Origin: an uncultured Flavobacteriales bacterium
GTDB lineage: Bacteria > Bacteroidota > Bacteroidia > Flavobacteriales > Schleiferiaceae
Assembly: GCA_938084135.1 (NCBI GenBank)
Contig: CALKDS010000003.1
Span: forward strand, 1-45,501
DNA: 45,501 nt
Reading direction: 5' to 3'
Shown here in pieces: positions 33,151 through 39,341 of this stretch. Numbering within the stretch: position 1 is the stretch's first letter; every line of letters begins with the position of its first letter. The notes under the pieces were generated by a model. That model worked only from the letters and a program-made list of their open reading frames with translations. It was not told the origin of the DNA and ran no database searches. A program made the translations under genes and the position numbers.

Positions 33151-34155
33151 TTGGATCCATACTTTATACCTTTTTTAAATGCAGAGGCACTCGAAGATCG
33201 TTACTCTAAGCTCTCTGAATTCCTTCATAAAACTCCAATTTTAACTTCTGATTCCATAAACTTAGATTGCGAGGCTTCTCTATTTTTCAAGTGTGAGAAT
33301 TTTCAAAAATCTGGAGCCTTTAAAATGAGGGGAGTAAGTAATGCCATTTATGAATTATTAAAGATAAAAAATAAACCAAAAGGCGTAATTGCTCATTCGT
33401 CCGGTAATCACGGCCAGGCATTAGCTTGGGCAGCAAAGCAAAATGATATCCAATGCGTAGTAGTGATGCCTCGAAATGCCTCTAAATTTAAGAAAAAAGC
33501 AGTTTTAGCTGCTGGAGGAGAGATTATAGAATGTGATTCTAACATATCCTCTCGAATAAATACAGTAAAAAAAATTAGTGAGACTTCTGGATTTATAGAA
33601 ATTCATCCAAGTAATCAACCTTCAGTAATATTAGGTCAAGGTTCCGCAGCATGGGAGTTAATGACTGAATGTCATAAAAACAATATCAAATTAAGCCATA
33701 TAGGCGTCCCCGTTGGCGGAGGAGGGCTGGCTGCAGGAACCGGATTTGCTGTCTCAATATGGAATAAAACTCATGGCACTTCAATCAAAGTTTTTGCGGG
33801 TGAACCAGCGGGGGCAGATGATGCATATCGAAGTTTTTACTCCGGTAAAATAGAACATAATAGGAATCCTAAAACTATTGCTGATGGATTGAGAACAGAA
33901 TTAGGAAGCATAAATTTTCCAATTATTCAAAAAACAATTGACGCTATTTATTTAGTTTCAGATGCGGAAATTCTAGAGGGACAATTAAAGTTAGCGGAGA
34001 GGCTAAAATTGATTATCGAAAGTAATTGTTCTCCGCCGTTTTCTGTTGTGTGTAAAGAGCGTCAAATATTTAATAATAAAACTATTGGTATAATTTTATC
34101 CGGCGGAAATATTGATTTAAGAAATAGTTCTTGGGGTAGCCAATTAAAAGCATGA
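33151..34155 (+). CDS. PLP-dependent serine/threonine dehydratase (or serine racemase)
   Basis: The enzyme deaminates L-threonine or L-serine to a 2-oxoacid through an enamine. In the 334-residue sequence the PLP lysine is K58 in KSGAFKMRG, a substrate loop is SSGNHGQALAWAAK, and the PLP-phosphate loop is VGGGGLAAG. No C-terminal ACT domain follows, so it resembles catabolic threonine dehydratase or serine racemase rather than IlvA. A TTG start is the only plausible one: an in-frame stop lies at 33136-33138. A terminator follows the gene, separating it from the RidA-family gene. Confidence 0.9.
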   Translation: MDPYFIPFLNAEALEDRYSKLSEFLHKTPILTSDSINLDCEASLFFKCENFQKSGAFKMRGVSNAIYELLKIKNKPKGVIAHSSGNHGQALAWAAKQNDIQCVVVMPRNASKFKKKAVLAAGGEIIECDSNISSRINTVKKISETSGFIEIHPSNQPSVILGQGSAAWELMTECHKNNIKLSHIGVPVGGGGLAAGTGFAVSIWNKTHGTSIKVFAGEPAGADDAYRSFYSGKIEHNRNPKTIADGLRTELGSINFPIIQKTIDAIYLVSDAEILEGQLKLAERLKLIIESNCSPPFSVVCKERQIFNNKTIGIILSGGNIDLRNSSWGSQLKA

Positions 34156-34200: not shown

Positions 34201-34425
34201 ACAACCCTTGGTGAATCCTTCCTATTGTTCGAATTCAATACAAATATGGTAAAAAAATTGACTTATTGTATAAATAACCTTAAGTTTTTTTTGAATTGGG
34301 TTTTGATAATGTATTTAAAGTGATTTCCAGTTGATCTAACAATTTTAAATTCATTGAATGAAAATATTGAGTTTATAGAGCAATATGCTTTAAGTCAAGC
34401 ATCAAATTCGGTACTTTTGTTGGTA

Positions 34426-34863
34426 ATGAGCGATACAAATAAAAAAATTGAATCAAATGCGCCGTTGCCGGTTGGTTCATATCCAATGACAAGACGAGTA
34501 GGAAATCTAATTTTCATGTCTGGTGTAGGTCCACGAAAACCTAAAAGTGGGACAGACCAATCCTCTGTGCCAGGGTTAGTTATTAATTCTCATGGTGAAA
34601 TTATCGATTACGATTTCACACAACAGGTTCATAGCGTTTTTGCTAATATCAAGACCATACTGATGGAGTCTGGGTGTGAATGGTCGGACCTTGTAGATAT
34701 AACAGTTTATCTAACAGATATGAAACGTGACTTTGCTGAATTCAATAAAATTTATTCAGAGTACTTTGAAACAACTGACATTAGGCCATGTAGGACTACG
34801 GTAGAAGTCCTTTCGCTTCCAACGCCAATAGCAATAGAACTTAAGTGTATAGCCTCACTATGA
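34426..34863 (+). CDS. RidA-family protein, probable 2-aminomuconate deaminase
   Basis: I choose ATG 34426 (MSDTNKKIESNAPLPVGSYP) over the TTG at 34354, giving 145 residues, normal for the family. The trimeric RidA/YjgF fold is shown by SGVGPRKP, VFANIKTILMESGC, DLVDITVYLTDM and CRTTVEVLSLPTPIAIELK. The SGVGPR and LPTPIAIELK segments resemble 2-aminomuconate deaminase (AmnD/NbaF), which releases ammonia from 2-aminomuconate, two steps after ACMSD. The arginine of CRTTVEV matches the substrate-binding Arg of RidA, so a general enamine deaminase serving the upstream dehydratase is the alternative. It overlaps ileS by ATGA. Confidence 0.85.
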   Translation: MSDTNKKIESNAPLPVGSYPMTRRVGNLIFMSGVGPRKPKSGTDQSSVPGLVINSHGEIIDYDFTQQVHSVFANIKTILMESGCEWSDLVDITVYLTDMKRDFAEFNKIYSEYFETTDIRPCRTTVEVLSLPTPIAIELKCIASL

Positions 34864-37800
34864 GCATATTATTTCCTGAACGTGGCCCATTAAATCTCAC
34901 TGAAACTCAACAAAACATATTAAAGTTTTGGAAAGATAACGATGTGTTTGAAACGTCAATACGCAAAGGTTCTCCAAGTTTTGTTTTTTACGAAGGTCCT
35001 CCTTCAGCAAATGGACTTCCTGGAATACATCACGTAATGGCCCGTACCATTAAAGATATCTTCTGCAGATATAAGACTCAAAAAGGGTTTAAAGTTGAAA
35101 GACGAGCAGGCTGGGATACTCATGGATTACCTATCGAACTTGGTGTTGAGAAATCTCTAGGAATTACCAAAGAGGATATTGGTATAAAGCTCACTATTGA
35201 ACAATATAATGCAGCTTGCAAGGAGGCTGTTATGAAATATACAGACATTTGGAATGATCTGACCGAGAAAATGGGTTATTGGGTTAATACCGAAGACGCA
35301 TATGTCACTTATAGACCTAAATACATGGAATCAGTTTGGTGGCTTCTCTCCGAGATTCATAAAAAAGATCTTCTTTACAAGGGTTATACTATTCAGCCTT
35401 ATTCTCCTAAAGCGGGAACCGGATTAAGTTCACATGAGTTGAATCAGCCTGGTTGTTATCGAGAAGTGAAAGACGTAAGTGCAACAGCTCTATTTAAAAT
35501 AATCTCATCTAAAGAAAGCTTATCTCTTTTTGACAATTCCAGCGTTCATTTTATGGCATGGACGACTACTCCCTGGACATTGCCCTCAAATACTGCTTTA
35601 ACAATAGGCAAAAAAATCAAATACAGTAGAATTTCCACCTTCAACCCCTACACCAAAGAGCCTCAAGAGGTAATAATTGCAAGTGATTTGATATTTCATT
35701 ACTTCCGAAAAGAAGACGAAAATATTCCTGATCTACCCGAAGGCAAAATGTTACCATGGCAAAAGCTATCTGAGCATCTTGGTAAAGAATTTGTTGGGTT
35801 AAGATATGAGCCCTTATTGCCTTATGCAGAGCCATATGAAAACCCTGAGAATGCCTTTAAAATTATTCCAGGTGATTTTGTAACAACTTCTGATGGAACT
35901 GGTATTGTTCATACGGCTCCAACATTTGGTGCCGATGACGCTCGGGTTGCTAAAGAATTTGGTGTTCCACCTATGCTCGTTATGGATAATTCTGGAAACC
36001 TTGTTCCTCTTGTTGATTTACAAGGCCGATTTATTGACTGCATGGGAGATTTAGCTGGTCAATATGTCAAAATAGAATATTATTTAGATGATGAGCGGCC
36101 GAAGTTAAGCGTAGATGAGCAAATAAGTATTCAACTAAAACAAAAAGGAAAAGCATTTAAAATTCAGAAATATTCTCATAGTTACCCGCATTGCTGGAGA
36201 ACTGATAAGCCGATTCTTTACTACCCAATGGATAGTTGGTTCATAAAAACGACAGCAATTAAGAAGCAACTCCAAGATTTGAATAAGGAAATTCTATGGA
36301 AGCCGGAATCAACAGGAACAGGCCGATTTGGAAATTGGTTGGAAAACTTGAACGATTGGAATTTAAGTAGGAGTAGGTATTGGGGAATCCCATTACCTAT
36401 ATGGAGAACAGAAGATGGTAGCGAAGAAAAAATAATAGACTCAATTCAAACATTAAAACAAGAATTACAAAAAAGTGTAGCTGCCGGAAATATGAACTCA
36501 AACCCATTAGAGTCATTTATCGCTGGTGATTTTAGTGATGAGAATTATTCACAAGTAGATCTCCATCGACCGCATGTTGATAATTGGATATTAACCTCTT
36601 CAGTTGGAGAAGCAATGTATAGAGAAACGGATCTCATTGACGTTTGGTTTGACTCTGGCGCAATGCCTTATGCTCAAATACATTATCCATTTGAAAATAA
36701 AGACCTGATTGATTCAAAAAAAGAATTTCCGGCTAGCTTCATCGCTGAAGGCGTGGATCAAACGCGTGGGTGGTTTTTCACAATGCATGCTATTGCTGGT
36801 TTAGCTTTTGATTCTGTGGCCTACAAAGCTGTAATCTCTAATGGGCTGGTGTTAGATAAAAACGGTCAAAAAATGTCTAAAAGGTTAGGTAATGCTATTG
36901 ATCCATTTCAAGCAATAAATGATTATGGTGCTGATGCTTTGAGGTGGTATATGATTACCAATTCTCAGCCTTGGGATAACCTAAAGTTTGATTTTGCTGG
37001 CGTAAAAGAAATTCAAAGAAAATTTTTTGGCACTCTTCATAATTCCTACAGCTTCTTTTCTCTCTATGCTAATGTTGATAGATTCGATCCTTTAGCTGAG
37101 GTAGTTTCGCAGAACAGCCTTTTAGAAATAGATCATTGGATTTTATCCAAATTAAATAGTCTAATCAAAGAAGTTACTGAGAAACTAGATGATTTTGAGC
37201 CAACTAAAGCATTTCGTCCTATCAGTGATTTCGTTCAAAACGAATTGAGTAATTGGTATGTTCGTCTTTGCAGACGAAGATTTTGGAAAGGCGAAATGGG
37301 GCAAGATAAACTGGGAGCTTATCAAACTCTTTACTCATGCTTAACTACTGTAGCTAAGCTTATTGCCCCAGTTGCCCCCTTTTATGCCGATCAGCTTTAT
37401 CAAGATTTGACAAAAACTTCGCGTTCTGTTCATTTATCTGATTTTCCTGTTTCTAACGAATTGAAAATTCATAAAGATTTAGAGAGAAGAATGTCGCTGG
37501 CTCAATTAATGAGCTCTTTAGTTCTAAGCATCAGAAAAAAAGAAGGCATCCGAGTTCGCCAACCCATATCAAGAATAATTATTCCAATATTTAGTGGGGC
37601 TCAAGAAAATGATATTTTGGCCATAAAATCCCTAATTCTCTCAGAAGTAAATGCGAAAGAAATAGAATTGATAAAAGAGGATTCGGGTGTTTTTGTAAAA
37701 CGTGGTAAGCCGAATTTTAAAACACTCGGACGTAAAGCAGGAAAAGCAATGAATGAAGTTGCTAAAGCAATAAGAACTCTTTCTCCAAAAGAATTAAAAA

Positions 37801-38219
37801 CCCTTGAGGAAAACAATAATCTAGAGTTAAAATTATCTGCTTCCGTGTTTAACATAACTAATGAAGATGTTGAAATAACTACGGATGATATACCGGGAAT
37901 GGCAGTTGCCTCAGAGCAAGGTGTCACTATTGCCGTAGATCTAAAATTAAGTCCAGAACTCATTCAAGAAGGATTAGCTAGAGAAGCTGTAAATCGTATT
38001 CAGACAATCCGAAAAGAGCAAAACTTTGATATTACTGATAGAATTACTTTGTGGGTAAATGGTGATTTAAAAATTATTGACGCCATCAAAGCACACTCGA
38101 ATTATGTCTCGAGTGAGGTTCTCGCTATTTCGCTGAATTACGGTTCTTCTATTCCAAATGACGTAATTGTTTCTCAAGTAGACCTTGATGGTCACCATAT
38201 GATTTTCGGACTTAGATAA
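34860..38219 (+). CDS. ileS: Isoleucyl-tRNA synthetase, type 2, with GIHH signature
   Basis: IleRS charges tRNA-Ile and edits valine. The ATG at 34860, overlapping the preceding stop as ATGA, is preferred to the GTG at 34845; the protein has 1119 residues, the size of the eukaryote-like IleRS2 group. The editing domain CP1 shows WTTPWTLPSNTALTIG and GTGIVHTAPTFGADDARVA; the catalytic loop is KMSKR (671-675). The class I signature HxGH reads GIHH at 55-58 (NGLPGIHHVMAR), with the first and third positions exchanged. A GxHH form has been reported in some IleRS2 enzymes strongly resistant to mupirocin. Confidence 0.97.
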   Translation: MSILFPERGPLNLTETQQNILKFWKDNDVFETSIRKGSPSFVFYEGPPSANGLPGIHHVMARTIKDIFCRYKTQKGFKVERRAGWDTHGLPIELGVEKSLGITKEDIGIKLTIEQYNAACKEAVMKYTDIWNDLTEKMGYWVNTEDAYVTYRPKYMESVWWLLSEIHKKDLLYKGYTIQPYSPKAGTGLSSHELNQPGCYREVKDVSATALFKIISSKESLSLFDNSSVHFMAWTTTPWTLPSNTALTIGKKIKYSRISTFNPYTKEPQEVIIASDLIFHYFRKEDENIPDLPEGKMLPWQKLSEHLGKEFVGLRYEPLLPYAEPYENPENAFKIIPGDFVTTSDGTGIVHTAPTFGADDARVAKEFGVPPMLVMDNSGNLVPLVDLQGRFIDCMGDLAGQYVKIEYYLDDERPKLSVDEQISIQLKQKGKAFKIQKYSHSYPHCWRTDKPILYYPMDSWFIKTTAIKKQLQDLNKEILWKPESTGTGRFGNWLENLNDWNLSRSRYWGIPLPIWRTEDGSEEKIIDSIQTLKQELQKSVAAGNMNSNPLESFIAGDFSDENYSQVDLHRPHVDNWILTSSVGEAMYRETDLIDVWFDSGAMPYAQIHYPFENKDLIDSKKEFPASFIAEGVDQTRGWFFTMHAIAGLAFDSVAYKAVISNGLVLDKNGQKMSKRLGNAIDPFQAINDYGADALRWYMITNSQPWDNLKFDFAGVKEIQRKFFGTLHNSYSFFSLYANVDRFDPLAEVVSQNSLLEIDHWILSKLNSLIKEVTEKLDDFEPTKAFRPISDFVQNELSNWYVRLCRRRFWKGEMGQDKLGAYQTLYSCLTTVAKLIAPVAPFYADQLYQDLTKTSRSVHLSDFPVSNELKIHKDLERRMSLAQLMSSLVLSIRKKEGIRVRQPISRIIIPIFSGAQENDILAIKSLILSEVNAKEIELIKEDSGVFVKRGKPNFKTLGRKAGKAMNEVAKAIRTLSPKELKTLEENNNLELKLSASVFNITNEDVEITTDDIPGMAVASEQGVTIAVDLKLSPELIQEGLAREAVNRIQTIRKEQNFDITDRITLWVNGDLKIIDAIKAHSNYVSSEVLAISLNYGSSIPNDVIVSQVDLDGHHMIFGLR

Positions 38220-38319: not shown

Positions 38320-38700
38320 ATGGAAAAAGAAAAAATAAGATATAGTGATAAAGAGCTTGAAGAGTTTCGAGTTCTTATTCAAAGTAAAATAGATAAAGCT
38401 GAAGAAGATTTACACATTCTTCGTGAGCAGTTTACAAATAATATGGATAATGGAACAGAAGACACTGCTCCTAGCTTTAAGAGCTTTGAGGAAGGGTCAG
38501 AGACCATGAGTAAAGAGGCTAACGCTCAGTTAGCATCTCGTCAAGAAAAATTTTTACGTGACTTAAGAGCTGCTTTAACTAGAATTTCAAATAAAACGTA
38601 TGGAATTTGCAAAGTTTCTGGTAAGCTCGTTGAAAAAGAACGCCTCAAGCTTGTTCCTCATGCAACTATGAGCATGGAAGCCAAGTTAAAACAAAGGTGA
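38320..38700 (+). CDS. TraR/DksA-family protein with degenerate zinc finger
   Basis: The 126-residue protein has the long coiled-coil N-terminal half of the DksA family (YSDKELEEFRVLIQSKIDKAEEDL) and a C-terminal finger region YGICKVSGKLVEKERLKLVPHATMSMEAK. Of the four zinc cysteines only C97 remains; S100, H114 and S118 occupy similar places. This form seems common in Bacteroidota, and zinc binding may be lost or altered. DksA proteins bind in the RNA polymerase secondary channel and affect transcription with ppGpp. Whether this one does so is unknown. Its stop overlaps the GTG of lspA. Confidence 0.88.
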   Translation: MEKEKIRYSDKELEEFRVLIQSKIDKAEEDLHILREQFTNNMDNGTEDTAPSFKSFEEGSETMSKEANAQLASRQEKFLRDLRAALTRISNKTYGICKVSGKLVEKERLKLVPHATMSMEAKLKQR

Positions 38701-39341
38701 ATAAGGCTCTACGCCTTCCATTTATTATTTCAATTTGTCTGGTTTTTCTTGACCAGGCATCGAAATTATGGATCAAATCAAATCTTGCATTAGGCGAAAG
38801 TATTGTATTAACTGAATGGTTCCATCTCCATTTCACAGAAAATCCAGGAATGGCTTTCGGTATTGAGTGGGGAGGCATTATTGGCAAATATATCCTAAGT
38901 TCGTTTAGAGTTATTGCAATACTTGGAATTCTTTGGTACATGTTTCGACTTGCCAAAGGAGGTGCTAGACAATTTGTTCTAATCTCATTCGGTGTTGTTT
39001 TAGCTGGTGCGCTTGGTAACGTTTTAGACAGCTTGTTTTATGGTTTAATATTTGATCAGGGTTTGGTTTATAATGAACTTTATAGTCAATGGGTAGTATA
39101 TTCTGGAGTTGCAGAGTTCAATACTCTTGGTTATGCTCCAATGCTTTTAGGAAATGTTGTAGATATGCTTTACTTTCCGCTTTGGAATGGGGTCCTGCCC
39201 TCATGGGTTCCTATATGGGGCGGTGAATATTTTGTTTTTTTTCGCCCTATTTTTAATATCGCCGATTCATGTGTGACTATTGGTGTGATTCTTTTGTATT
39301 TGAGCTCAAGAAAATCTGAAAATTGGGGGAATTCTAAATAG
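38697..39341 (+). CDS. lspA: Lipoprotein signal peptidase (signal peptidase II)
   Basis: LspA cleaves prolipoprotein signal peptides before the lipid-modified cysteine in the inner membrane. The gene starts with GTG in a GTGA overlap with the DksA-like gene. The 214-residue protein has four hydrophobic segments, FTENPGMAFG, and catalytic aspartates most likely D156 (GNVVDMLYFPLW) and D190 (FNIADSCVT). A segment of about 40 residues between GNVLD and GNVVD makes it longer than the E. coli enzyme, as in other Bacteroidota. Its substrates would include the DUF4292 and DUF4837 lipoproteins in this window. Confidence 0.95.
   Translation: MNKALRLPFIISICLVFLDQASKLWIKSNLALGESIVLTEWFHLHFTENPGMAFGIEWGGIIGKYILSSFRVIAILGILWYMFRLAKGGARQFVLISFGVVLAGALGNVLDSLFYGLIFDQGLVYNELYSQWVVYSGVAEFNTLGYAPMLLGNVVDMLYFPLWNGVLPSWVPIWGGEYFVFFRPIFNIADSCVTIGVILLYLSSRKSENWGNSK

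Follow-up and report, generated by a model that had tools for sequence, protein, structure and literature searches.

The closest described counterparts of the enzyme analysed here are type 2 isoleucyl-tRNA synthetases (IleRS2) in which positions 1 and 3 of the class I signature HXGH are exchanged. This G/AXHH variant was described in 86 of 163 IleRS2 sequences by Brkic et al. 2023 (PMC10485003). According to the same study, the IleRS2 of Deinococcus radiodurans, whose motif is ALHH, is inhibited by mupirocin with a Ki of 6.6 mM, and this value falls 823-fold when the motif is changed to HVGH. Placing GVHH in two canonical IleRS2 enzymes gave a gain of ~200- to 400-fold; the GVHH mutants of Thermus thermophilus and Priestia megaterium IleRS2 have Ki values of 35 and 460 µM, compared with 0.20 and 1.08 µM for the respective wild types. 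The structures show that the third histidine of GXHH provides the group that normally comes from the first histidine, and in modelling this third histidine clashes with mupirocin. Type 1 enzymes (IleRS1) do not tolerate GXHH. The authors inferred at least two origins of G/AXHH and one reversion, in Deinococcus-Thermus (PMC10485003), and the string 'Bacteroid' does not occur in the main text of their paper. The GXHH variant is therefore already known, having been published in 2023, and the case presented here adds little beyond that work.

Identity of the window IleRS

The window, by which we mean the whole analysed stretch of 45,501 nucleotides, contains a complete ileS gene (Table 1). Translation of the open reading frame, from its ATG to its stop codon, yields a product with EGPPSANGLPGIHHVMARTIKD and confirms the position and length that the preliminary description had given. 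The product scores 961 bits against TIGR00392 (ileS), above the curated cut-off of 621.4, and is thus an IleRS. Its Pfam domains are tRNA-synt_1, Anticodon_1 and, at the C-terminus, DUF5915. The open reading frame, the CP1 editing region, the KMSK loop and the C-terminal domain are all intact.

Table 1 Features of the ileS region, numbered from the first position of the window
Feature	Position	Strand	Basis or remark
PLP-dependent dehydratase-like gene	33151..34155	+	PALP
RidA/YjgF-family gene	34354..34863	+	Ribonuc_L-PSP
ileS, complete type 2 isoleucyl-tRNA synthetase, 1119 aa	34860..38219	+	TIGR00392, Pfam and PDB matches
GIHH signature (gga ata cat cac), residues 55-58, replacing HXGH	35022..35033	+	Translation and alignment
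KMSKR signature loop, residues 671-675	36870..36884	+	Common Bacteroidota form
DksA/TraR-like C4 zinc-finger protein, immediately 3' of ileS	38320..38700	+	Pfam zf-dskA_traR, slightly below cut-off
lspA, signal peptidase II	38697..39341	+	Pfam Peptidase_A8

A type 2 enzyme is defined by a eukaryote-like catalytic core together with an IleRS2-type C-terminal domain. Among solved structures, the top matches of the window IleRS are the P. megaterium IleRS2 chains 8c8w and 8c8u (~800 bits), which far outscore S. aureus IleRS1 (just ~316 bits). Judged by these matches and by the DUF5915 C-terminus, the enzyme is type 2, as had been proposed. The best match overall, 8c8w, carries GVHH, and 8c8u and 8c8v carry HVGH.

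We compared the window IleRS with four groups of known enzymes. With the G/AXHH IleRS2 of D. radiodurans (ALHH) and Streptomyces griseus it shares the type 2 assignment, the exchange of HXGH positions 1 and 3 and a normal domain layout; unlike the D. radiodurans enzyme, it has GIHH and is a flavobacterial sequence. The housekeeping IleRS2 enzymes of Bacteroidota such as Tenacibaculum, Riemerella and Wenyingzhuangia are ~55-95% identical to it, have GXHH and mostly KMSKR, and also share a nearby DksA/TraR-like gene and lspA; no substantial difference from the window gene is seen. The staphylococcal plasmid-borne MupA and MupB likewise belong to the IleRS2 family, and the NCBIfam models for MupA and MupB give 782 and 799 bits. 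However, these scores lie far below the exception cut-off of 1900 bits, and the identity is ~38%. Cells with MupA have acquired it as a second gene; the window ileS, in contrast, is the housekeeping gene. Lastly, E. coli-type IleRS1 has the same class I fold and catalyses the same reaction, but retains the canonical HIGH where the window IleRS has GIHH.

Signature motifs

The signature stretch of the window IleRS reads NGLPGIHHVMAR. In a MAFFT alignment, the GIHH column holds HIGH in E. coli IleRS1, HMGH in the ValRS of the same genome and HYGH in Tsukamurella IleRS2. GIHH therefore lies exactly where HXGH is expected and has the form G/A-X-H-H with a hydrophobic X; the replacement reported in the preliminary description is real. 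The source assembly is fragmented (88 contigs), which could raise the suspicion of a sequencing or assembly artefact. Such an origin has essentially no probability and is already refuted, because the identical GIHH occurs in relatives from independent genomes at 95, 90, 76 and 75% identity.

The second signature is ordinary: KMSKR is the usual Bacteroidota form, present in 116 of 139 relatives, in agreement with the earlier view of an otherwise normal enzyme. More distant relatives (loci L113 and L144-L166) mostly have KMSKS and at times KMSKT, KMSKK or KMSKN, and GXHH is invariant among them.

Gene neighbourhood and copy number

Homologues of the DksA/TraR-like gene are found at 67 of 80 related loci and those of lspA at 58 of 80, some loci being cut by contig ends. 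By this gene content, the order ileS, DksA/TraR-like gene and lspA is a conserved housekeeping arrangement, which bears out the housekeeping position earlier assigned to ileS. On the upstream side, the RidA/YjgF-family gene overlaps ileS by 4 bases; it and the dehydratase-like gene are rarely near ileS in relatives (6/80 and 4/80 loci, respectively).

In the genome to which the window belongs (1.56 Mb, 79.9% complete), no other gene scores above the TIGR00392 cut-off. We extended the search to 18 genomes of the same genus and to 12 of the same order. Each has one IleRS, at times split over contigs, the exception being one incomplete genus mate; none of the remaining listed matches in these genomes exceeds ~83 bits, a level that fits ValRS and LeuRS. 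The window gene is thus most likely the sole, housekeeping ileS, as judged in a genome 79.9% complete, and the earlier statement that no second copy is visible holds for this genome as well as for its genus mates.

The copy number bears directly on a different reading, in which tRNA-Ile is charged by the product of a canonical ileS elsewhere and the window protein is an IleRS paralogue that is defective or moonlights. The motif itself could suggest this, as enzymes normally cannot do without HIGH, and IleRS1 loses its activity when the motif is swapped (PMC10485003). However, IleRS2 enzymes with GXHH are catalytically competent (PMC10485003), every part of the window gene named above is intact, and a second IleRS was found neither above the cut-off in the 79.9% complete genome nor in its genus mates, whose completeness reaches 98%. 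We therefore regard a paralogue as very improbable.

Distribution in Bacteroidota

The closest named relatives of the window IleRS come from uncultured Cryomorphaceae and Owenweeksia MAGs (75-95% identity), followed by flavobacteria at ~60%. A 16S rRNA gene was not found in the 79.9% complete genome, so the placement of the lineage rests on these relatives; the host appears to be an uncultured flavobacterium of a marine, Cryomorphaceae/Owenweeksia-like MAG lineage.

We read the motif at 135 Bacteroidota loci, which represent families sampled across the phylum and are not all independent. All 135 have GXHH (115 GIHH, 17 GVHH, 2 GLHH and 1 GMHH), and HXGH is found in none of them. At the DNA level, a loose pattern for GxP[GA]xHH matches 395 of 396 Bacteroidota genomes, a count that includes chance matches; for this reason we relied on a stricter pattern and on direct reading of genomes that it misses. 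The strict pattern, for ANGxPGIHHV, matches 238 of 396 genomes. From those without a match, 29 were sampled: 27 were readable and all 27 have GXHH, one lacks a strong IleRS match and one lacks the N-terminus. The strict pattern is missed because of T-V-N-G in place of S-A-N-G, V, L or M at X, or another residue after HH. One genome (G367, 81% complete) has no GXHH match and no strong IleRS match at all. The opposite pattern, GxPHxGH, matches 123 of 396 genomes, and in 20 fetched loci (L119-L138) the IleRS motif is found in none; these look like chance matches. With the phylum sampling partly read at the protein level, we lean towards GXHH being universal, beyond merely common, in Bacteroidota IleRS.

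Since every readable Bacteroidota relative has GXHH, the motif would most simply be a phylum feature inherited from an early Bacteroidota ancestor. The preliminary description had asked, in view of the motif, whether this lineage meets pseudomonic-acid producers. For a recent, lineage-specific adaptation to marine antibiotics of this type, one can point to the apparently marine host lineage and to the thiomarinols, pseudomonic acid hybrids produced by marine Pseudoalteromonas (PMC3069032). The phylum-wide distribution contradicts it: the motif is fixed in all readable relatives, mostly far outside the genus, and no sister enzyme with HXGH is present to suggest a recent switch. A recent adaptation is accordingly most unlikely, and the view that the motif is notable for this lineage is unsupported; if it is ancestral in Bacteroidota, it does not tell whether the lineage meets producers of pseudomonic acid.

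Functional implications

We hold with high confidence that the window protein is the housekeeping IleRS2, present as a sole copy, and that GIHH is the standard Bacteroidota form; its aminoacylation, resistance and ancestry are what we infer from these relationships. In the proposed explanation, the third histidine would take over the role of the first, so that catalysis is kept, and the same histidine would clash with bound mupirocin, as in the modelled case. By analogy with characterised homologues, aminoacylation should be normal, and the enzyme would charge tRNA-Ile for the whole cell. Its mupirocin Ki is expected to exceed by far the values of IleRS2 enzymes with HXGH and probably lies between tens of micromolar and the millimolar range. 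The motif would have come down from the early Bacteroidota ancestor without recent acquisition under drug selection. Most likely, then, the window IleRS is fully functional and intrinsically mupirocin-hyper-resistant, in line with the published link between GXHH, type 2 enzymes and hyper-resistance (PMC10485003) that the preliminary description had drawn on.

In summary, the survey makes one modest addition to PMC10485003, namely sampled Bacteroidota without any HXGH IleRS. It suggests that an altered class I signature is fixed across a phylum, and Bacteroidota should then be intrinsically mupirocin-insensitive at the target.
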